From positions 1 to 23,137 of IMG/VR virus record IMGVR_UViG_3300035034_000074: DNA of 23,137 bases, one strand, 5' to 3'. The notes under the pieces are model-generated. The model did not search any database, was not told the origin of the DNA, and saw only the letters and a list, made by a program, of their open reading frames with translations. Positions 1,129 through 12,132 of this stretch are shown piece after piece (the stretch's first letter is position 1; every line of letters starts with the position of its first letter). The stretch is from a virus. The position numbers and the translations under genes were made by a program.

Positions 1129-2601
1129 ATGGATTTCTATACTAATTTTTACTCACGCGGTGATACTCTCTATTATCGTGGTTATAAAGACGGCATTCAG
1201 TGTATGGATACCGCTCAGATTGAGCCCACACTTTACACCACAAAGCGCACCGGCTCCAACGAAAGTACTCAAACTACAATCTTTGGCGAATCTCTTTATC
1301 CTGTCACATTTGAAAATCCTAAAGCCGCAAAAGACTTTATGAATTCTTACAAGTCTAGCGGTGTTAATGTCTATGGGTATCCTCGTTTTGACTATGCAAC
1401 TATTGACGAGTTGTTTCCTGGCGAAATTCAATTTGACATCAGTCTTATACGCATTATGGCAATCGACATCGAGACTACAGTTAACGACGGTTTTCCTGAC
1501 ATCTTCACGGCTAACGAAGCCATAACTCTAATCGCAGCAACATTTCGTGGGCATGTCTATCAGTTTGGTTATAAAGAAACAGCCTTTCGCGCAGATGACG
1601 TAACCTATGTTTGCTGTGAAAATGAAATGCAGATGCTAAAGGCTTTCTTGAAGTTCTATGCGGCTATAAAAGTTGACATCATTACCGGTTGGAATGTTAT
1701 CGGCTTTGACTTACCATACATGTATAATCGCATTATGCTATTGTTTTCTGAAACTGTAGCAAATAAGATGTCTCCGTATGGCCGGTGCCGCAAAACACTT
1801 ACTGAGTTTAAAGGCAAAGAAGGCATCGTTATTGAAATACCTGGCATCCAAGTTCTTGACTATCTTGAGCTGTATCGTAAGTTCGAGCTGTCGCCTCGTG
1901 AAAACTATAAGTTGAGCACTATTGCCCAAGTTGAGTTAGGCGATGACAAAGTAGAATTCGAAGGCACGTTCAAAGATTTCTATACGAACAATTGGGATTT
2001 GTTCTGTGACTATAACGCTCAAGACGCGCGGCTTATTGATCGCCTTGACAACAAACTCAAGTTCATTCAGATTGCATGCACTATGGCATTTGCCGCAAAG
2101 TCTAACTTTGTTGATGTCTACCGCGTTACTCGTATCTGGGATAATATCATTGCAAACTACTTGCGCACAAACAACATGCACTTCGAAAGCTCAACTATTA
2201 GTTTTGGCGAACCGTATGAAGGCGCGTTTGTTAAACCAACTATCCCGGGCCTGTATGAGTGGATCGCGTCCTTTGACGTAGCATCTCTGTATCCATCTCT
2301 AATCATGCAATATAATATTAGCCCAGATACTATTCTCAATCGTAATACATTCCCTAACTTGACAGCACAAGATGTTATCCAAAAAACCGAAATGTTTAAT
2401 TATGCTGTAGAATGTGCAAATGAATATAATGCAACTCTTTGTGCAAATGGCGCAATGTTCTCAAAAGAAAAGCAAGGCTTCTTACCTAAATTAGTTGAGT
2501 TGTTCTTCGCCAAGCGAGTTGCAGCAAAGGCAGAAATGAAAACATGGTCAATTGAAGCTGAGCGCGTCAAAGCTGAAATTTCGTCCCGGCATGCGTACTA
2601 A
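1129..2601 (+). CDS. 43A: DNA polymerase gp43, N-terminal half (exonuclease and palm motif A)
   Basis: A 490-residue protein that is the first half of a family B, T4-type replicative DNA polymerase. The proofreading exonuclease motifs are intact: Exo I D113-I-E115, Exo II N189...F-D194, Exo III Y295-N-A-Q-D299. Polymerase motif A is D383..SLYPS followed by YNISPDT. A 'KQGFLPKLVELFFAKR' segment corresponds to the start of the fingers. The ORF then ends (TAA) in the region that in T4 gp43 is the fingers, before motif B. Motifs B and C are in the next ORF, so neither half can be an active polymerase alone. ATG 1129 has GGAG six bases upstream and a perfect promoter. Bipartite gp43 genes split in the fingers are known in some T4-like Aeromonas phages, so this is probably a functional two-subunit enzyme and not a broken gene. 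Confidence 0.95.
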   Translation: MDFYTNFYSRGDTLYYRGYKDGIQCMDTAQIEPTLYTTKRTGSNESTQTTIFGESLYPVTFENPKAAKDFMNSYKSSGVNVYGYPRFDYATIDELFPGEIQFDISLIRIMAIDIETTVNDGFPDIFTANEAITLIAATFRGHVYQFGYKETAFRADDVTYVCCENEMQMLKAFLKFYAAIKVDIITGWNVIGFDLPYMYNRIMLLFSETVANKMSPYGRCRKTLTEFKGKEGIVIEIPGIQVLDYLELYRKFELSPRENYKLSTIAQVELGDDKVEFEGTFKDFYTNNWDLFCDYNAQDARLIDRLDNKLKFIQIACTMAFAAKSNFVDVYRVTRIWDNIIANYLRTNNMHFESSTISFGEPYEGAFVKPTIPGLYEWIASFDVASLYPSLIMQYNISPDTILNRNTFPNLTAQDVIQKTEMFNYAVECANEYNATLCANGAMFSKEKQGFLPKLVELFFAKRVAAKAEMKTWSIEAERVKAEISSRHAY

Positions 2602-2610
2602 AGAATATGA

Positions 2611-2639
2611 TTGACAATTATTCATACATGTTGTATAAT
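2611..2639 (+). promoter_or_regulatory. Consensus sigma70 promoter between the two halves of gp43
   Basis: TTGACA at 2611-2616 and TATAAT at 2634-2639 with a 17-base spacer: a perfect consensus, sitting in the 67-base gap between gp43A and gp43B. Expected start near 2646 gives a leader of about 23 bases to the GTG at 2669. The bases upstream of the -35 box are A-rich. Confidence 0.9.
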
Positions 2640-2668
2640 AGATCTATCATCAAGCAAGAGGCTGTACC

Positions 2669-3763
2669 GTGTCTAAAAATCTAACTGAGTTGTCTGATAT
2701 TGAATTATCAGCATATCTTACTGAATGTAATAACAATGTCTCTAAGTTTGATAAATCTCAACATAGTGTAAAGATTCTGCTTAACAGTCTTTACGGTGCA
2801 CTCGGGTCTCCATTCTTTCGCATGTATGACAAAGCGCAAGCTGAAGGTATTACTCTATCAGGCCAAGCGGTTGTTACACAATCATATATAGTGTTTAACG
2901 ATTATCTTAACACAATGTTAAAAACTAACACTGACTATGCTGTCGCATCAGATACGGATTCTGTGTATGTTAACTTAACCCCGTTAGTCGATGCGCTCTT
3001 TCCTAAAGATACTTCTCATGATCAGTTAGTTGATGGCATTGTTGGATTATGCGACGGGCACTTCTCTGATATGTTGTCAACGCGCTTTGCTGAATATGCC
3101 ATTGAGACTAATGCGTATACTAATGCCATTGATATGAAGCGAGAGGCTGTTGCTACTGCATGCTTTGTTGCCAAAAAGAATTACGTCATGCGTGTATACG
3201 ATAACGAAGGTACTCGATATGCAACTCCTAAGCTAAAGATTACCGGTCTTGAGGCTATAAAATCTTCTACACCAAAGTTCTTTCAGGATAAGCTAAAAGC
3301 CGGTTATTCGTTTGTTTTTGATAAAACAGAATCCGATGTACATTCTTTTGTTGATAGCGTGTACAAAGAATATGCAGCTCGTCCAATTGAAAGTATTGCC
3401 GCAACTATTTCAGTCACTGAACTTGAGAAATATATCGAAGGTGACGGCTTTAAATCTGGTACTCCGGGGCATGTTAAAGCTGCTGTTATTTACAACAACT
3501 GTATTGATTCGCATAATCTCGGCAATAAGTATCACAAGATTCGTGCAGGCGATAAGATTAAGATCATCTCGCTAAAAATGCCGAATCCATTAAAACAAAA
3601 GTACTTTGCGTATTTAGATAAGTTTCCGCACGAGTTTATTCCAGAAAAATATATTGACCGTGATTCTAACTACGAAAAGTACTTCGTAACCCCACTTAAT
3701 CGAGTTCTTGGTACAGTTAAGTGGAATCATGAATACACTAGTTCGTTGGAGGATTTCTTTTGA
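2669..3763 (+). CDS. 43B: DNA polymerase gp43, C-terminal half (fingers motif B, palm motif C, thumb)
   Basis: A 364-residue protein starting with GTG 2669, preceded by AGAGG (2657-2661) at a seven-base spacing. It begins in the second fingers helix (T4 'NELSNYTESVLNSL...' matches 'LTELSDIELSAYLTE'), then has motif B K35...N39-SLYG, motif C D95-T-D97-SVYV, a KKxY-type segment, and a thumb. The last residues 'SSLEDFF' resemble the clamp-binding tail of T4 gp43 (SLDFLF). Together the halves total 854 residues against 898 for T4, so little or nothing of the enzyme is missing; they are in different frames. The downstream gene starts with TTG overlapping this stop codon (TTGA). The two halves presumably assemble non-covalently; no intein motifs are present at the break. 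Confidence 0.95.
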   Translation: MSKNLTELSDIELSAYLTECNNNVSKFDKSQHSVKILLNSLYGALGSPFFRMYDKAQAEGITLSGQAVVTQSYIVFNDYLNTMLKTNTDYAVASDTDSVYVNLTPLVDALFPKDTSHDQLVDGIVGLCDGHFSDMLSTRFAEYAIETNAYTNAIDMKREAVATACFVAKKNYVMRVYDNEGTRYATPKLKITGLEAIKSSTPKFFQDKLKAGYSFVFDKTESDVHSFVDSVYKEYAARPIESIAATISVTELEKYIEGDGFKSGTPGHVKAAVIYNNCIDSHNLGNKYHKIRAGDKIKIISLKMPNPLKQKYFAYLDKFPHEFIPEKYIDRDSNYEKYFVTPLNRVLGTVKWNHEYTSSLEDFF

Positions 3764-4214: not shown

Positions 4215-5126
4215 ATGTCTAAACTGCTAGAAAAATTGGCAAAAGCCAGTACCATCAAACACTCTGCTATATTAGGTGAGTCTAAGTTTTTTACAAGTAA
4301 AGATGAAACTGTTACTGATCTGCCAATTCTAAACTTGGCGTTCTCAGGTTCTCTTAAAGGTGGATTTGCGTCCGGTCTTACAATGATTGCGGGTCCGTCC
4401 CGCCACTTTAAATCTAATCTTGCGCTATTCTGCATCAAGTCTTATCTCACTAAACATAAAGATGCAGTCTGTCTGTTTTATGATTCTGAGTTTGGCGCAC
4501 CACCTCCGTATCTTGCTGCATTTGGTATTGATACTTCGCGCGTACTTCATACTCCAATTATCCACATTGAACAGCTAAAGTTCGATCTGATTGCACAACT
4601 TGAGAATATTGAGCGCGGAGATAAAGTCATTGTCTTTATTGACTCTGTTGGCAACTTGGCATCTAAGAAAGAAACTGATGATGCGTTAGAAGGTAAGTCT
4701 GTCGCAGATATGACTCGAGCCAAACAGCTAAAAAGTTTGTGGCGTATGGCTACACCACAGTTCACTGTAAAAGACATCCCATGTATTACAATCAACCACA
4801 GCTATGAAACTATGGAAATGTTTTCTAAAGCAATCATGTCTGGTGGATGTCTATTGCCGGGTCAGAAGATTAAAATGGCCGATGATACTTTACGCCCAAT
4901 TGAGCGTATTGCTGTTGGCGATATGGTAAAAACACTGCATGGTGATAAAGAAGTAACACATACTTGGAATCCTGAAACACTAGCAGTTGGTACTCCAGAA
5001 TGTTATCAGATTGTGTTTGAGAATGGTAGTTCTATTGAATGCTCAGCTGAACACAAGTTTCTTGTGGACGGAGAATGGGTCATGGCCAAAAATCTGAAAG
5101 ACGATGATGACTGCCAAGAACTTTAA
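4215..5126 (+). CDS. uvsX: UvsX recombinase N-extein fused to N-terminal split intein
   Basis: Residues 1-211 are the first part of a T4-type UvsX (RecA-like strand-exchange ATPase): Walker A GPSRHFKSN (60-68), 'AVCLFYDSEFG', Walker B VIVFID (138-143), 'SVGNLASKKETDDAL', and 'NHSYETMEMFSKAIMSGG'. The family then continues with TGPMYS, but here residue 212 is a Cys that opens a 92-residue N-intein ending in a stop at 5124-5126. The intein has block A (C-LLPGQKI..., GDMV) and block B (IECSAEHKFLV, with S-x-x-H in place of the usual T-x-x-H) and ends in an acidic tail (KDDDDCQEL). The C-terminal half is the separate gene at 5983. ATG 4215 is preceded by GAGGA at 4204-4208. The product should be inactive until spliced in trans. 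Confidence 0.95.
   Translation: MSKLLEKLAKASTIKHSAILGESKFFTSKDETVTDLPILNLAFSGSLKGGFASGLTMIAGPSRHFKSNLALFCIKSYLTKHKDAVCLFYDSEFGAPPPYLAAFGIDTSRVLHTPIIHIEQLKFDLIAQLENIERGDKVIVFIDSVGNLASKKETDDALEGKSVADMTRAKQLKSLWRMATPQFTVKDIPCITINHSYETMEMFSKAIMSGGCLLPGQKIKMADDTLRPIERIAVGDMVKTLHGDKEVTHTWNPETLAVGTPECYQIVFENGSSIECSAEHKFLVDGEWVMAKNLKDDDDCQEL
4848..5123 (+). other. N-intein (92 residues) of split intein in UvsX
   Basis: It starts at the Cys codon 4848-4850, directly after the conserved extein residues S-G-G. Visible motifs are catalytic Cys1, the block A glycine-aspartate turn (VGDMV), and block B with the buried His (SAEHKF). There is no in-frame endonuclease domain. The final 12 residues are strongly acidic, complementing the basic start of the C-intein, as in other natural split inteins where charge drives association. 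The length fits known N-fragments (about 90-105). Confidence 0.92.
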
Positions 5127-5142
5127 CTAAGAACGTGAAAGC

Positions 5143-5150
5143 TATAAATA
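5143..5150 (+). promoter_or_regulatory. T4-type late promoter (TATAAATA) for the homing endonuclease
   Basis: TATAAATA at 5143-5150 is an exact match to the T4 late promoter -10 consensus and is the only exact copy I found on the plus strand. Expected start is near 5156, with GGAGG at 5173-5177 and ATG at 5182. T4 homing endonucleases such as I-TevI are also driven by internal late promoters, so the placement is meaningful. Confidence 0.75.
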
Positions 5151-5181
5151 ACTCCAGTACCTAAATCATTCTGGAGGTTGT

Positions 5182-5964
5182 ATGCACTGTGTATATCTGT
5201 TGTCTTTTACGAATCGCTTGAAACAAAATACTCCACCTTACTATTATGTTGGTTCCAAATCGGACTTTAGTTTCACGGACGGTAGATTGTATGATAAAGC
5301 CGGTAAGCTATATGCTGGGTCCTCAAGATACAACGGTTGGAAGGATATTGTTAAAGATGAATACGAAGTAAGTATTCTATCAACTTGGGAAGAGTATAAA
5401 GACTGCATTGTCGCAGAGTATGACGAGCAGATTGCCAGAAATGCTGTTGCTTCACCTGAATACTTTAATCTTAGTTTTGCAGCATGTAATTCTTTCGCTA
5501 ATCCACTGTTTGCGTTGTTTAAACATTCGGTGACTGGCAAACGAGTTAGGTTAGAGATAGACCATGCGATGGTATTGAGCGGCGAATATGTTGGTATCAC
5601 GAAAGGCAACAAACTTAGTAAAGAACATCGTATGAAAATTTCTAATGGCCAATTGGGAGATAAAAATCAATTCTTTGGTCGTAAACATACTGATGAATCA
5701 TTACAGAAAATGTCTGCTGCTTTGTTGGGTAAACCGACAAGTGATCTCCAAAAACAATCCGTCTCTAAACGTCATAAGGGAGTTCCTAAAAGCAAAGAAC
5801 AGAGAGCAAAGATTGGGCGACCGGGTTTAGTAATGCTGAAGAATGTAATTACGTTAGAAGTAATTCGTGTGTCTAAAGAAGATCCGCGGTATTCAGATCC
5901 AGATTGGATGGCATTAACTCGTTACACTAGCATACAGAAAAAGCTTGCACTACTACAAATTTAA
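5182..5964 (+). CDS. Free-standing GIY-YIG homing endonuclease with NUMOD3 motifs
   Basis: A 260-residue protein lying between the two halves of uvsX. The N terminus is a GIY-YIG nuclease domain: VYLL (4-7) and YYVGS (21-25) replace GIY and YIG, a GSSR segment follows at 46-49, and E79 in 'VAEYDEQIA' is a good candidate for the catalytic glutamate. Residues of about 145-215 are a run of NUMOD3-type DNA-binding repeats ('LSKEHRMKIS', 'GRKHTDESLQKMSAALLGK', 'KGVPKSKEQRAKIG'), as in phage Seg and I-TevI-like enzymes. It likely cuts intein-free uvsX alleles near the SGG/TGG codons so that the element is copied by recombination. GGAGG (5173-5177) precedes ATG 5182, with a late promoter upstream. 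It is not fused to either intein half, which is the hallmark of a fractured-gene arrangement. Confidence 0.92.
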   Translation: MHCVYLLSFTNRLKQNTPPYYYVGSKSDFSFTDGRLYDKAGKLYAGSSRYNGWKDIVKDEYEVSILSTWEEYKDCIVAEYDEQIARNAVASPEYFNLSFAACNSFANPLFALFKHSVTGKRVRLEIDHAMVLSGEYVGITKGNKLSKEHRMKISNGQLGDKNQFFGRKHTDESLQKMSAALLGKPTSDLQKQSVSKRHKGVPKSKEQRAKIGRPGLVMLKNVITLEVIRVSKEDPRYSDPDWMALTRYTSIQKKLALLQI

Positions 5965-5982
5965 ACACAAGAGTGATAATTG

Positions 5983-6087
5983 ATGAAGATTAAAAAAATT
6001 AACAAGATGGGCAAGCGGGACGTATACGACATCTCCGTGAAAGACGCAGAACATTATGTTCTAGAGAATGGTGTAGTTACTCACAAT
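5983..6087 (+). other. C-intein (35 residues) of split intein in UvsX
   Basis: It encodes a 35-residue C-intein ending in the Asn codon 6085-6087, followed by the +1 Thr codon 6088-6090. The length and break position (between blocks B and F) match canonical natural split inteins. The N-terminal 12 residues are highly basic, opposite in charge to the tail of the N-intein. Confidence 0.92.
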
Positions 6088-6525
6088 ACAGGTGGCATGT
6101 ATTCTTCGTCTAACGTCTTTATGTTAGGACGTGCTCAAGACAAAGATGGTACTGAGCTGCAGGGATATAAGTTTACTATTAACATCGAAAAGTCTCGCCA
6201 GGTTCGAGAGAAATCTAAATTTCCATTACTCGTATCATTTGAGAAAGGTATCAGCAAATACTCTGGTCTTCTTGACTTAGCTATTGAGCTGGATTTTGTA
6301 GTTAAGCCGAAGATGGGTTGGTACTCTCGTGTATTAGTTGATGAAAAGACAGGAGAAATAGCAGAAGACAAAAACTGGCGAGCAAAAGATACACAATGCG
6401 AAGAGTTCTGGGGACCGTTACTTAACTCAGCTGCGTTTGAGAAAGCATGTAACGATCGGTACCAGTTGGGTAACACAAATTCAGAAGAAGACACAGTAGA
6501 CCTAGGAGAATTAAATGACGAATAA
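5983..6525 (+). CDS. uvsX: C-terminal split intein fused to UvsX C-extein
   Basis: The protein starts at ATG 5983, 18 bases after the endonuclease stop; a TTG at 5980 is in frame but less likely. Residues 1-35 are a C-intein: a basic start (MKIKKINKMGKR), block F (DVYDISVKDAEHYVL), and block G (VVTHN), ending in the required His-Asn. The next residue, Thr36, is the +1 nucleophile and native UvsX sequence (TGGMYSS, T4 TGPMYS). Residues 36-180 are the rest of UvsX: 'GTELQGYKFTINIEKSR', 'KSKFPLLVSFEKGI', 'YSGLLDLAIEL', 'VVKPKMGWYSR', 'WRAKDTQCEEFWGPLL'. Trans-splicing with the upstream product would give 211 + 145 = 356 residues, close to T4 UvsX. The end overlaps the next gene by 11 bases. Confidence 0.95.
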   Translation: MKIKKINKMGKRDVYDISVKDAEHYVLENGVVTHNTGGMYSSSNVFMLGRAQDKDGTELQGYKFTINIEKSRQVREKSKFPLLVSFEKGISKYSGLLDLAIELDFVVKPKMGWYSRVLVDEKTGEIAEDKNWRAKDTQCEEFWGPLLNSAAFEKACNDRYQLGNTNSEEDTVDLGELNDE

Positions 6526-7302: not shown

Positions 7303-8670
7303 ATGAACGAAATCGAATTATTGATTGCTGCCTCCCTTCTAACGAATCCGGACTTCAGATCAAAGGTGTATCCTCACCTAAAACCCCAATTCTTTATGTC
7401 TCGGTCAATTTCTACGATCGTGGCTACCCTCCAAGAATATCATAACACCTACGAATCATTTCCAGATCAAACCGCACTGCGTGTTGAATTAGAGAGCCGA
7501 AAGGGTTTAACAGAAGAAGTCTTTACATCAACTGTTGGCGATCTAACTACTCTATACTCAGACAAAGTTTGTGCCGCTATATCTACAGTCGATTACCCGT
7601 GGCTACTTAACAAGACCGAGAAGTACCTAAAGACTCAGAGTTGTCACTTGGCAGTTATGGAATCTCTTGGTATTCTGGAAGGCGAGAACAAGAATCTTAC
7701 ACCCGAAGCAATTCCAGATATTCTAAAAGAAGCTCTGTCTATTTCTTTTGATGTCAATGTTGGTCACGACTATCTCGAGGATGCTGATTCTCGTTATGAT
7801 TTCTATCATAAAGTAGAGCAAAAGATTCCGTTTAAGCTGTCTGCATTGAATGCTATTACGAACGGCGGAGCTCCAAGAAAATCACTCATTGTTCCAGTTG
7901 CACCCACCGGTGTTGGTAAGTCTTTGTTCCTTACTGACTGGGCATCGTTCTTAATAACACATGGCTTTAACGTGTTGTATATTACACTTGAGATGGCCGA
8001 AGAGCGTGTAGCAGAACGTATAGACGCGAATCTTATGGATATTACAATCCAAGACTTGCAGACGATTCCCAAGTCCACATTCGATTCAAAAATTAACACA
8101 CTTAAGCGCAACTCTCCAGGTATCATTAAAATTAAAGAATATCCGCCTGGCACATTTAATGCTAACCATTTGCGGTTTTTGTTACAAGACTTGAAGAATA
8201 AAACTGGCTTTGTTCCAGATGTTATTGCAGTTGACTATCTTAACCTGATGGCATCCTATCGTATGAAAGATGCCGGCAACACTTATACTTACATCAAGGC
8301 AGTAGCCGAAGAACTGCGCGGTATCGCCATGGAATTTGATAACATTGTGATAGCTCCAACTCAGACTAACCGGACGGCTAGCGGTGCTTCTGACTTTGAA
8401 CTGAATGAAGTTTCAGAATCATTCGGTATTGCTATGACGGCTGATTGTATGTTCGGTCTTATTAGTACTCCAGACATGGAAACGCTTGGACATCTGCGCA
8501 TCAAAATGCTAAAGAATCGGTGGGGTAGTATTGATCGGTCGTTCTTATCAGCGATCAATCGTGCAAAAATGCAGCTTAATGATCTTGATGTCATTACACC
8601 GCAAGCACCACGCCCTTCAAACAAACCTTCTTTAAATAACAAACCAGCTATAACAGGAATGAAATTCTAA
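7303..8670 (+). CDS. 41: Replicative DNA helicase gp41 (DnaB family)
   Basis: A 455-residue protein (T4 gp41: 475). ATG 7303 is preferred over the in-frame TTG 7252, which lies inside the terminator hairpin and upstream of the expected transcription start; AGGT at 7293-7296 precedes ATG, and the product then begins MNEIELLIAASLL, like the T4 protein. The N-terminal domain (about 1-130) is followed by the RecA-like core: Walker A APTGVGKS (200-207), 'NVLYITLEMAEERVAERIDANLMD', a 'VIAVDYLNLM' Walker B region, and 'IVIAPTQTNR'. It unwinds DNA at the fork as a hexamer with the gp61 primase encoded further down. The C-terminal tail is low in complexity (PRPSNKPSLNNKP). It overlaps the next start by one base (TAATG). 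No intein is present, unlike some relatives. Confidence 0.93.
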   Translation: MNEIELLIAASLLTNPDFRSKVYPHLKPQFFMSRSISTIVATLQEYHNTYESFPDQTALRVELESRKGLTEEVFTSTVGDLTTLYSDKVCAAISTVDYPWLLNKTEKYLKTQSCHLAVMESLGILEGENKNLTPEAIPDILKEALSISFDVNVGHDYLEDADSRYDFYHKVEQKIPFKLSALNAITNGGAPRKSLIVPVAPTGVGKSLFLTDWASFLITHGFNVLYITLEMAEERVAERIDANLMDITIQDLQTIPKSTFDSKINTLKRNSPGIIKIKEYPPGTFNANHLRFLLQDLKNKTGFVPDVIAVDYLNLMASYRMKDAGNTYTYIKAVAEELRGIAMEFDNIVIAPTQTNRTASGASDFELNEVSESFGIAMTADCMFGLISTPDMETLGHLRIKMLKNRWGSIDRSFLSAINRAKMQLNDLDVITPQAPRPSNKPSLNNKPAITGMKF

Positions 8671-9701
8671 TGGCCGTCTTATCATCTCAGACAACTGACA
8701 AACAGCTATCATTTACAAAATATGTAACCAATAACAAGCGTCTTAAAGATATAGACTTCGAGATTGATAAGGGTCTCGAGGCTGTCTTGTACACCAAATC
8801 GGGTATTACATACGCAGTGTCAGATGCACCAAATTTGAAGCCGGGGGAAAAGTTTAAGATAACAGACACCAAACTTTACGATCCGATGAAATTAAAATTA
8901 GCAAAAGTCGCGTACAAGAATCGCACATATTTTGCCCAAATTTCAAAAATTAGAAAACCTACTGGTGGAAACGGTACGCAATATGAAGACGAAGTTGTTG
9001 ATTCGCTGAATAGTTATATCAAAGACGCAGGCGGCGTTGTTACATTTGTACTTAAGGGAGATAATAGACTTTATCGTGATATGCGATACGCGGTTAAAGT
9101 GGATAGTCGAATTAAGTCAAGTGGTGGCGTAAAGGGAGACCCTAAAGCCGATATTATAATATGTGCTGATATTAAGAATCCGACGGCCAAAGGATCAATT
9201 TACATATCCCATAAGAAAGAAGGCGGCCCTGAAGCATTCCAGCAGTATGGCGGTTTAAGTAAGCAAGCAGGCGAACATATATTCAATCATCCGCTTACTC
9301 AGAAATTTTTGAAGGCTGCTGCCGGAAATATTACCGGTGATAAATTAACATCTCCGTTAATGATGACATTTGATGACAAAGAATTGTCTAACCTATCCAT
9401 ATATGGACCTGAGTATGGTAAAGCATTCTCTTTACAAAATACACAATTGATTGGGCAAGGTTCACCTAGGTACGATTACTCTGCATCTAAAGACATTACG
9501 ACATTGGACTTTTCGTCGCATATGAGTCTAAACGGCGATCTTAGTCACTTCGTGGGTGGGTATGAACCAGTATTTGGTGCAACATATCGCGCAGGACGAG
9601 GTTTTGATTTTGAAGGCAAACGTTATAGCGGCGCACGGGTTGCATTATACCCCAAAAATCTAATGCAGACGCGGTCTAAGTTAATTACATTTAAGGGTTA
9701 A
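8670..9701 (+). CDS. PD-(D/E)XK-like nuclease-fold protein, putative
   Basis: A 343-residue protein whose ATG overlaps the gp41 stop. The middle region suggests a restriction-endonuclease-like fold: a helix with acids (YEDEVVDSL, E106/E108), then GDPKADIII (D161), then a strand ending ISHKK (K182), then 'FQQYGGLSKQAG'. In the usual motif the residue two before the Lys is Asp or Glu; here it is Ser180, as in some divergent members. The N-terminal 100 residues form a separate, beta-rich part. Similar proteins near gp41 in T4-like marine phages are familiar to me but have no assigned role. Translational coupling to the helicase suggests DNA replication, repair or host-DNA breakdown. The fold is inferred from motif pattern only. 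Confidence 0.6.
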   Translation: MAVLSSQTTDKQLSFTKYVTNNKRLKDIDFEIDKGLEAVLYTKSGITYAVSDAPNLKPGEKFKITDTKLYDPMKLKLAKVAYKNRTYFAQISKIRKPTGGNGTQYEDEVVDSLNSYIKDAGGVVTFVLKGDNRLYRDMRYAVKVDSRIKSSGGVKGDPKADIIICADIKNPTAKGSIYISHKKEGGPEAFQQYGGLSKQAGEHIFNHPLTQKFLKAAAGNITGDKLTSPLMMTFDDKELSNLSIYGPEYGKAFSLQNTQLIGQGSPRYDYSASKDITTLDFSSHMSLNGDLSHFVGGYEPVFGATYRAGRGFDFEGKRYSGARVALYPKNLMQTRSKLITFKG

Positions 9702-9706
9702 TATCG

Positions 9707-11257
9707 ATGAAACTTTTTGAAGCAGGGAATGTCCGCCAAGGATTGCCGCACATTCATAGTATGACGTTAGATCAATTCAAAAATCTTACTCACGGTGGCA
9801 AAGTACATCTCCACGACTTGACTGAAAAGACTGACGGGCAGGCGCATGTATTTGGACATGATGAACATGGTTTTTATACACAATCATCGGGGTCAGGTTC
9901 TGACAAAATGCGCCACCCTGATGACTTTAAGCATCGCGCAATTGCTCGAGCTAAAGAGACGGGCAAAGAACCTAGTCTACACGCAGCAGAAGCATTTGGT
10001 CATATTCACAAGATCTTGCATGCCAATACTAAACTACAACAGCACCTTAAAGATCAGCATACAAAGACGGGTGCTGAAGTAAAAGTTCGCGGCGAATCTT
10101 TTTATCGCCCATGGGGTTCACCCGGGACGCATGAAGGCGAAACTAAGTTTGTTGGAACATCTTATGCAACTCATCATATGGGTTCTGTTGGAAAGTATGT
10201 AATTCATACTAAGCTGCCAGACAATCACGGTCACGACGTTGATCATTTTAAAAAGCATCTATCTGATTCCCATATCAATTTTGATGATGATAAAATCCAT
10301 CATGCAGCTAAATCCGTTGATGTATCAGATGAGCATAAAGCTCTACATAGCCTTAACCATGAATTGATTTCGTCCCGGACTACTAAGACTAACAAAGAAG
10401 CAAAATTGGCAGAAGTAGAAAAGATGTCCAAGCTACAACACTCTGTCTCGGCAAAAGTCGATCATCACGTTAAGAAGATGGGATTAACTCCAAAATGGGG
10501 TTCTGGGTCTGAAGGTATTGTTATTCATCCGTCATCATCAAACTCTACCGCCCCAAGGTTCAAAGTGACGAGTGACAACTTCCGTCAGTATAAAAAAGAA
10601 GCTGCACCATGGAAGGGTTCTGCTAAAACCGAGTCGGCTTATATAATGCCTTTTGGTGCCTTCTTAGCTGAAGCTGCTACGACCCATCACACGTCTGTTA
10701 TTCCGATGGTTGGCTTCTCCCCTATCTCCCACATGGGTCATGCCAAAGATCTTGGAGACGCGCTATCTAAACTCCCAGGTAAGAAACATATTGGAATCTC
10801 ATCTAAAGCTGACGTCTTTACGCCCAAAGAGCGCGGGGATATACTTCATAAGCAGTGGGGTCAAACGGATCTTAAGCACCATGAAGTAAAATCAGCCGGT
10901 GAAACTATTGCTAACGCGCATGCAGCTCTTCCTAAGAACGGCAAAAAAGTACTTCATATGCTCGTTGGCCATGATCGTAAAGACTTTGCACATGGTCTAA
11001 AGAAGTCTCTTGAAGCCGGGAAGATTAAAGAGATGGGAGAATCAAAGTGGGACGAGATTCACATTCACCATCCTGAAGATTCTGATCGCTCACATGGTAT
11101 GTCTGGTACTAATATGCGTGGTGCCGCAATGAACGACAACCACGAAGAATTCCATAGGCACCTAGGATCAATGTTTACTGGCCAAGAAGCAAAGAAAATA
11201 CACAAGCGGGTCAAAGAAGGTTTAGATACCGGGCAGATTAAGGTAAAGCGGAAATGA
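9707..11257 (+). CDS. Fusion of ligase-like nucleotidyltransferase and HxGH nucleotidylyltransferase domains
   Basis: A 516-residue protein with two catalytic signatures. Residues 1-300 resemble the covalent nucleotidyltransferase fold of DNA/RNA ligases: EKTDG (40-44; K41 as candidate nucleotide-accepting Lys of KxDG), 'VKVRGESF' (125-132), SEGIVIH (268-274; motif IV type), and RFKVTS (284-289; K286 as motif V Lys). Residues of about 330-490 resemble HIGH-family nucleotidylyltransferases (NMNAT/cytidylyltransferase type): 'MVGFSPISHMGHAKDL' with H342-M-G-H345, and 'MSGTNMRGAA' (465-474), equivalent to the ISSTxxR motif. Both sets of key residues are present, so both domains may be active. 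It contains 54 His in 516 residues. The next gene, another nucleotidyltransferase, overlaps it by four bases. The substrate cannot be told from the sequence. Confidence 0.7.
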   Translation: MKLFEAGNVRQGLPHIHSMTLDQFKNLTHGGKVHLHDLTEKTDGQAHVFGHDEHGFYTQSSGSGSDKMRHPDDFKHRAIARAKETGKEPSLHAAEAFGHIHKILHANTKLQQHLKDQHTKTGAEVKVRGESFYRPWGSPGTHEGETKFVGTSYATHHMGSVGKYVIHTKLPDNHGHDVDHFKKHLSDSHINFDDDKIHHAAKSVDVSDEHKALHSLNHELISSRTTKTNKEAKLAEVEKMSKLQHSVSAKVDHHVKKMGLTPKWGSGSEGIVIHPSSSNSTAPRFKVTSDNFRQYKKEAAPWKGSAKTESAYIMPFGAFLAEAATTHHTSVIPMVGFSPISHMGHAKDLGDALSKLPGKKHIGISSKADVFTPKERGDILHKQWGQTDLKHHEVKSAGETIANAHAALPKNGKKVLHMLVGHDRKDFAHGLKKSLEAGKIKEMGESKWDEIHIHHPEDSDRSHGMSGTNMRGAAMNDNHEEFHRHLGSMFTGQEAKKIHKRVKEGLDTGQIKVKRK

Positions 11258-12132
11258 AAACATTTGGTAGATTTAAACAGATTCTTAGTGAGGGCGGCAA
11301 CGTAAAGATTGGAGATGTTGCGGCCGGTCCACTGACAGTTACTGCTGCTAATAGAACTGAACACCAGCATGACGTTCATACAATGCTTAGCCATGTTCAC
11401 GACTCGATGCATGCAGAACATGGCGTTCATCTGTTTGGTAAAGACAAAAAGGCACTGCATTCACATAGTGCCTTTTCTGGTTCAACAAAACATCTAATGA
11501 ATAACGATATTAGCCACAGCGATTTCGCAAAACACAAATCGTCCGTAGGTGACCTTGATGTATCTGTTCCACATGAACACTACGACAAGTTACATGCGCA
11601 TCTGACCGCCGGAAAAAAGTTTGGCAAATATCATGTAGTTGGAACAAAGAAGTCTGGTAGCGAAACGCATGCTCTAATGAAACACGAAAATGGTCAAGTT
11701 CACCAAGTTGATTTTGAGAAGTCGACTTATCATAAAGATGAACCAAATGAGTTTACGCAGTTTGGGCACGGCTCGCATTGGGATGATACTAAAAGTGGTA
11801 TTAAAGGTGTTCATCACAAGTTGCTACTAAATGCAGCTGGTACTAATAAGCACAAGTTCTCTACTATGTATGGTGCAAAGTCTCGTACTGATGACAAAGA
11901 TTCATACGCAAGTACTAAGAAAGACATTACACATAAGATATTCGGTAAAGGTGCCGACCACGCTCACTTAGATTCATTTCATGGCGTCTCACATTTAATT
12001 AAGAACCACATTCCAAAAGAACATCACCAAGCCGTCTACGACAAGTTCAAATCATCAGTTGATGTAAAGAAAGGTATTGACCACGAACCCGCTCTTAAAC
12101 ATCTCCATAAAGCACTTGAACTTCACAAGTAA
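11254..12132 (+). CDS. Pol-beta-like nucleotidyltransferase, His-rich
   Basis: A 292-residue protein whose ATG overlaps the previous stop (ATGA). It carries a minimal Pol-beta superfamily signature: FSGS (74-77), then VGDLDVSV with D100 and D102 as the paired metal-binding acids, and QVDFE (151-155) with D153 as the third. The gap of 23 residues between GS and the first Asp is longer than in classic members. A C-terminal part of about 100 residues looks helical. It contains 39 His in 292 residues (13 percent), an unusual composition shared with the fusion protein upstream. Such enzymes transfer nucleotides to nucleic acids, proteins or small molecules; the target here is unknown. Coupled translation suggests it works with the upstream fusion protein. 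A ten-base-pair hairpin lies inside the gene at 11447-11476. Confidence 0.65.
   Translation: MKTFGRFKQILSEGGNVKIGDVAAGPLTVTAANRTEHQHDVHTMLSHVHDSMHAEHGVHLFGKDKKALHSHSAFSGSTKHLMNNDISHSDFAKHKSSVGDLDVSVPHEHYDKLHAHLTAGKKFGKYHVVGTKKSGSETHALMKHENGQVHQVDFEKSTYHKDEPNEFTQFGHGSHWDDTKSGIKGVHHKLLLNAAGTNKHKFSTMYGAKSRTDDKDSYASTKKDITHKIFGKGADHAHLDSFHGVSHLIKNHIPKEHHQAVYDKFKSSVDVKKGIDHEPALKHLHKALELHK
11447..11476. other. Terminator-like hairpin inside a coding region
   Basis: AAAAGGCACT (11447-11456) and AGTGCCTTTT (11467-11476) form a perfect ten-base-pair stem with a ten-base loop. It looks like the core of a bidirectional intrinsic terminator, but the T-run ends with the stem and the site is in the middle of the Pol-beta-like gene. 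Confidence 0.7.

Follow-up and report, generated by a model that had tools for sequence, protein, structure and literature searches.

The tRNA repair system of phage T4, Pnkp-Rnl1, is made after infection and is not packaged, and it includes neither a Pol-beta nor an HxGH enzyme. For proteins that do travel with the DNA, T4 provides the precedent of a capsid-targeting sequence, of its trimming by gp21 and of injection into the host (PMC9958956, PMC3012670). In cyanophages, two HxGH proteins have been detected in purified particles by mass spectrometry, namely gp154 of S-CREM2 (three peptides; PMC10665884) and ORF91 of S-SCSM1 (PMC9602691), and the authors of these studies pointed out that carry-over of abundant proteins is possible. 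The same studies proposed that such NMNAT-like virion proteins regulate NAD (PMC9602691, PMC10665884).

The window, that is, the whole stretch of 23,137 nucleotides analysed here, comes from a T4-like virus of bacteria. It contains an intact reading frame whose product the first-pass annotation had recognised as a phage protein combining two distinct nucleotidyl-transfer domains. The features of this region are as follows (a slash marks a predicted cleavage point).

8670 to 9701, plus strand: upstream gene, 343 aa, phrog_13937; positional counterpart of the KxDG-adjacent gene in other lineages
9707 to 11257, plus strand: open reading frame of 516 aa, with a KxDG ligase-type domain, a disordered linker and an HxGH nucleotidylyltransferase domain
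9734 to 10603, plus strand: KxDG domain (covalent nucleotidyltransferase, RNA-ligase-like), residues 10-299, from the AlphaFold2 model and structural alignment
9827 to 9838, plus strand: KxDG motif, K41-T-D43-G44, preceded by E40; K41 is the predicted nucleotidylated lysine
10511 to 10525, plus strand: motif IV, E269-G-I-V-I; E and G invariant
10562 to 10564, plus strand: motif V lysine K286, in R284-F-K286; invariant
10604 to 10678, plus strand: disordered linker, residues 300-324 (pLDDT 28 at 300-323)
10646 to 10672, plus strand: internal peptide resembling a capsid-targeting sequence, M314-PFGAFLAE322; the prohead protease is predicted to cut after E322
10679 to 11254, plus strand: HxGH nucleotidylyltransferase domain, residues 325-516, PHROG 3041/395, PPAT/CoaD fold
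10730 to 10741, plus strand: HMGH motif (S-H342-M-G-H345), residues 342-345; H, G and H invariant
11102 to 11119, plus strand: SGTNMR motif, S466-G-T-N-M-R471, residues 466-471; S, G, T and R invariant
11254 to 12132, plus strand: next gene, 292 aa, Pol-beta-type nucleotidyltransferase, phrog_19290, with an ATGA overlap with the preceding frame
11254 to 11292, plus strand: capsid-targeting-like N-terminus of the Pol-beta-type protein, MKTFGRFKQILSE/GGN, disordered in the model

The explanation that we favour, at a confidence approaching but not reaching an even chance, is that the 516-aa protein belongs to a virion-delivered set of three enzymes that process nucleic-acid ends, partly made as cleavable fusions and perhaps directed at host RNA. 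The KxDG/EGIVI and HxGH/SGTNMR motifs are all present in the protein as first described, and the reading of two distinct nucleotidyl-transfer domains holds, as these motifs are invariant and both folds are predicted. In the first half, K41, D43, G44, E130, E269, G270, R284 and K286 are invariant in 29 non-redundant relatives; E130 belongs to an additional motif, R128-G-E130, and motif V has a single lysine, R284 replacing the other. The HxGH and SGTxxR residues of the second half are likewise invariant in 26 non-redundant relatives and, given this invariance, the motifs of both halves are not a chance occurrence.

Unlinked KxDG and HxGH rows were misaligned when combined in one alignment, and a reduced set of 25 rows was used for folding with AlphaFold2, which gave two confident domains separated by a disordered linker (pLDDT 86.8). 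The KxDG half resembles a Naegleria RNA ligase (6vt1; Z 10.4, 185 residues, 3.4 A in VIA-align), T4 Rnl1 is among its Foldseek matches, and its top structural matches include RNA ligases and no DNA ligases. The HxGH half resembles PPAT/CoaD (Z 10.8, 153 residues, 3.2 A in VIA-align), with PPAT, NadD and NMNAT as its Foldseek and VIA-align matches, and PHROG "cytidyltransferase" families match residues 322-508 at 9.5e-11 and 4.3e-8. On the predicted structure, the first half would be a member of the KxDG/RNA ligase superfamily (motifs I and IV, motif V lysine and fold) and the second of the cytidylyltransferase-like superfamily (motifs and a Rossmann-type fold). The 516-aa protein has no Pfam match to either family, PF01467 included, although PF01467 does match distant HxGH homologues in Va1, X1 and S-SSM4; no KxDG match was found in Pfam, NCBIfam or PDB sequence searches, and tblastn against isolate phages with the full protein and with the KxDG half gave no match. 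DUF6267 (PF19782) was expected to share sequence homology with the KxDG domain, but it has no Pfam match to the 516-aa protein and its comparison by hhalign was not significant.

The product of the next gene is predicted with high confidence (AlphaFold2 pLDDT 92.3). It is best matched by DNA polymerases of family X (Pol beta, mu and lambda), with Z 9.3 over 169 residues for DNA polymerase beta and Z 8.5 for a viral PolX; the GS, DxD and third D are all present and the catalytic carboxylates are invariant in 28 relatives. With its modelled palm fold and these residues, it would belong to the Pol-beta superfamily. The upstream gene has a possible PD-(D/E)xK-like motif and was considered as a fourth conserved member; the profile comparison between lineages was not significant, and it is thus kept as a motif-level lead.

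Several other observations concern the window itself. The set proteins encoded at 9707-12132 and their relatives are strikingly rich in His and Lys, as are many of their neighbours in the clade. At 4215-6525, a UvsX/RecA-like gene is interrupted by an intein-type N-part (GGCLLPGQKI...), followed by an ORF (5182-5964) resembling a GIY-YIG homing endonuclease and then by an intein C-part (...YVLENGVVTHN) and the rest of the gene, an arrangement that, from its sequence, is reminiscent of a gene fractured by a split intein. Additionally, two ORFs (1129-2601 and 2669-3763) within 1129-3763 each encode part of a split T4-like DNA polymerase.

Two alignment-based scans and one single-sequence scan of IMG/VR recovered more than 30 clade contigs, and the KxDG, Pol-beta-type and HxGH enzymes are all present in every contig of sufficient length. 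The functional unit is therefore best described as a set of three enzymes, including the Pol-beta-type enzyme of the next gene. Most clade contigs encode the KxDG protein followed by a fusion of the Pol-beta-type and HxGH enzymes; the three are separate genes in six (L015, L038, L040, L048, L051 and L054) and a single protein in three (L023, L053 and L063). One of these triple fusions (L053:4159-10767) is a protein of 2202 aa in which the three domains are accompanied by an HExxH peptidase-like segment, by a P-loop kinase and by further parts of low complexity; it looks like a virion polyprotein. All three enzymes are also found in Va1, CP220, X1 and Moby: Vibrio phage Va1 and 15 Campylobacter records have the KxDG and HxGH domains in one protein and a separate Pol-beta-type gene, while Stenotrophomonas phage Moby and Xanthomonas phage X1 encode the Pol-beta-type protein, another gene, the KxDG protein and the HxGH protein consecutively. 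In cyanophages, DUF6267 proteins (KIDG/KWDG, EGFV and K motifs) occur together with an HxGH protein, and the two are adjacent in S-SSM4. As side observations, PHROG 12709 spans both Moby gp049 (the upstream gene) and gp050 (KxDG) (L012:3300-5010), so their counterparts seem to be fused in other phages, and Va1 has a CCA-adding-type tRNA nucleotidyltransferase gene (L007:1734-3080) a few kb upstream of its Pol-beta-type and KxDG+HxGH genes.

The members of the set differ in how far they can be traced. The Pol-beta families are homologous across lineages at 1e-34 and the window's HxGH domain is homologous to the cyanophage one at 1.5e-13, both in profile comparisons, whereas the KxDG families of different lineages have no significant profile similarity; these are linked by motif, neighbourhood and fusion, and may be very divergent or separately recruited.

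Within the clade, only the window has the KxDG+HxGH fusion followed by the Pol-beta-type gene (order KxDG-HxGH-Pol-beta-type, against KxDG-Pol-beta-type-HxGH in all clade relatives), and no second IMG/VR contig has the same junction. Both facts are what would be expected if an assembly join had created the fusion and the true organisation were that of the relatives. We nevertheless consider such a join very improbable, because the junction is in frame and the fused gene overlaps the next one by ATGA; moreover, the internal signal peptide of the linker is intact and fusions of the same order are known in the Va1 and CP220 phages. In the window contig as assembled, the fusion is real.

In several lineages, the cassette adjoins replication genes such as that of a DnaB-like helicase. 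This location, together with the family X matches of the third enzyme, the viral PolX among them, would suit a packaged set that repairs the phage's own ejected DNA at nicks, gaps and ends, for instance after UV damage in surface water. Since the top structural matches of the KxDG domain are RNA ligases and not DNA ligases, we regard this own-DNA repair as unlikely, even though the models, with a ligase half resembling RNA ligases and a polymerase resembling family X DNA polymerases, would fit both RNA and DNA.

Healing enzymes accompany the set in some relatives. HAD-type phosphatases carrying the same N-terminal signal as the set directly follow the HxGH gene in four contigs (L028, L049, L051 and L054). 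Their match in PHROG is phrog_415, a "polynucleotide kinase" family (1.1e-5 in L028 and 2.9e-7 in L051), which is also matched by a similar gene in L005 (5e-13). A P-loop kinase is fused after the HxGH domain in L040 and L053, and HTVC008M gp129, whose gene lies between those of the DUF6267 and HxGH proteins, has matches to Zeta/AAA_33 and to a polynucleotide kinase family of PHROG. The combination of a ligase with a Pol-beta-type transferase and, in some phages, a kinase and a phosphatase points to nucleic-acid ends as the substrate. The NMP-onto-phosphate reaction type of the HxGH enzyme would fit 5'-end activation, although we are aware of no comparable HxGH enzyme with an established action on the ends of polynucleotides. 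From the two domains, the first-pass annotation had suggested end repair or capping; end repair is now the leading option, but that proposal was too narrow, as it did not take in the set of three or its healing neighbours.

The same annotation also mentioned NAD-type chemistry, according to which the HxGH enzyme would make NAD or another dinucleotide cofactor that the KxDG enzyme uses or recycles, for instance to counter NAD-depleting defences. The PPAT/NMNAT fold of the HxGH half, the annotation of cyanophage proteins as NMNAT and the virion role proposed for them (PMC9602691, PMC10665884) are all consistent with this chemistry. Nonetheless, Moby, X1 and two clade genomes (L001 and L035) each have a canonical NMNAT-Nudix enzyme apart from the set, for which reason simple NAD salvage is disfavoured; nor would one expect such salvage to be strictly coupled to a ligase and to an enzyme of the Pol-beta type. 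Overall, small-molecule chemistry appears quite unlikely.

A further alternative is that the set modifies or caps nucleic acids (a 5' cap or base hypermodification) instead of repairing them. KxDG enzymes do include mRNA guanylyltransferases, and queuosine-type genes in X1 and a radical-SAM gene in CP220 lie close to the set; however, among the window, the clade loci read and Moby, no modification gene is constant in the set and no cap methyltransferase adjoins it, which makes this alternative improbable.

Delivery with the virion is suggested by the ends of the proteins. Set proteins start with a short peptide, M-x-x-F-x-x-F-h-x-E, which resembles the T4 capsid-targeting sequence. The strict pattern is found in 58 of 71 set proteins and in 43 of 318 other ORFs of the same loci (p = 8e-29), many of the latter being neighbours within the same block, and a hydrophobic-x-Glu occurs at 26 of 27 fusion junctions where 13.0 would be expected after shuffling (the observed count was reached in 0 of 5000 shuffles), although these p-values overstate independence because the signal and junction sequences are related. 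Pol-beta homologues that lack the signal begin with MGGN, exactly at the predicted cleavage point of those that carry it. The N-terminus of the 516-aa protein itself (MKLFEAGN) does not match the strict pattern, but its linker (MPFGAFLAE/AATTHH) is the counterpart of the starts of stand-alone HxGH genes in relatives, so that the fusion looks like a captured HxGH gene that kept its signal. As a whole, the family would thus qualify as capsid-targeted, with a putative N-terminal targeting sequence and protease site.

The two HxGH proteins found in cyanophage particles bear the signal as well (MKNFSSFLTE/A in S-CREM2 gp154 and MKSFLQFLKE/A in S-SCSM1 ORF91), and the neighbours of ORF91 are likewise annotated as virion proteins. 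S-CREM2 gp156, also found in the particle (PMC10665884), has a Pol-beta-type motif (GGNANYNYTPYSDIDLH), with no significant profile similarity to the window's Pol-beta-type protein. Three of the four signal-bearing S-CREM2 genes are virion-detected, a link between signal and virion that goes in the expected direction (p = 0.13, a very small sample); the DUF6267 KxDG protein of this phage, encoded elsewhere (58914-59762), is absent from the published virion list (PMC10665884). Separately, the virion-detected SAM hydrolase gp6 of S-CREM2 (L080, OR473000 3837-5081, minus strand) begins with a capsid-targeting-like MKDFDSFLEE, which suggests an injected anti-restriction protein. The mass spectrometry covers cyanophage HxGH homologues rather than the clade of the window; packaging is well supported for the family and indirectly so for the window's phage.

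For the virion-delivered set, we propose the following model, whose steps of packaging in this phage and of cleavage are inferred, as are the activity of the enzymes and the nature of their substrate, RNA ends or DNA ends. The KxDG RNA-ligase-like enzyme, the HxGH adenylyl- or cytidylyltransferase and the Pol-beta-type nucleotidyltransferase would enter the prohead core by means of their T4-like capsid-targeting N-termini and be trimmed by the prohead protease at hydrophobic-x-Glu sites; the same protease would separate fused domains, in the window after E322. The trimmed enzymes would be enclosed in the head together with the DNA and would reach the host upon infection, where they would process the ends of broken nucleic acids and seal them again. 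With an NMP adduct on its lysine, the KxDG enzyme would activate a 5' phosphate, the Pol-beta enzyme would add nucleotides at 3' ends, the HxGH enzyme would transfer an NMP to a phosphate and, in those relatives where they are beside or fused to the set, the PNK-like P-loop kinase and the HAD phosphatase would heal the ends. As a first guess, the substrate would be host RNA damaged by anti-phage nucleases. In a broader form, which we hold more tentatively, the heads of T4-like phages from water and other habitats might contain a multi-enzyme nucleotidyl-transfer kit, made as polyproteins cleavable by the prohead protease, that is injected and mends nucleic acids before phage gene expression. 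Its composition, proposed with similar reserve, might be the ligase, the Pol-beta-type transferase and the HxGH transferase, in some phages with the kinase and the phosphatase.

If so, DUF6267, phrog_455, phrog_27149, phrog_19290 and the phage "cytidyltransferases" would become one testable system, and the "NMNAT-like" proteins that recur in cyanophage particles may belong to a repair kit for nucleic acids that is delivered with the virion. Since the set looks virion-packaged and proteolytically processed, the mature enzyme may no longer be what the word "fused" implies; a gene fusion in a T4-like phage can be misleading, as what it encodes may be cleaved into separate pieces inside the head.

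The folds are already known and the fusion is present, unannotated, in public families, but we know of no earlier description of the set, of its architecture of cleavable fusions or of its likely delivery by virions. Similarly, we know of no KxDG+HxGH fusion protein that has been characterised, as first noted, yet the pairing is not unique to the window, as it recurs in Va1-like and CP220-like phages (phrog_27149) and in phrog_455 (DUF6267 with HxGH). In phrog_27149 (Vibrio phage Va1_166 and CPT_0026 of Campylobacter phage CP220), as in the window, a KxDG domain (EHKTDG/EEKYDG and EEGVI/PEGYV) precedes an HxGH-type domain in one protein and a homologous Pol-beta-type gene lies elsewhere in the genome, but the KxDG halves, annotated as hypothetical and with a fold assigned from motifs only, have no detectable profile homology to that of the window. 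In the cyanophage DUF6267 plus cytidyltransferase pair, a KxDG-motif protein without significant sequence match to the window's domain is encoded next to an HxGH protein or fused with it; this HxGH protein is a homologue of that in the window and belongs to a family found in virions. The Naegleria gruberi RNA ligase and T4 RNA ligase 1 have the predicted fold and the KxDG, EGxV and K motifs in common with the window protein, but at about 10% identity and with extra domains not recognised in it; PPAT (CoaD) and NMNAT (NadM, NadD) have the fold, HxGH and S-x-T-x-x-R in common with its second half at about 12% identity, although, unlike them, the latter is fused or coupled to nucleic-acid-type enzymes. 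The T4 internal proteins (IPI-III and Alt) are not a ligase/polymerase/nucleotidyltransferase set, but they have a short N-terminal signal ending in hydrophobic-x-Glu and are delivered with the DNA, as predicted for the set. Finally, T4 Pnkp-Rnl1 resembles the set in joining a ligase with kinase and phosphatase healing enzymes.
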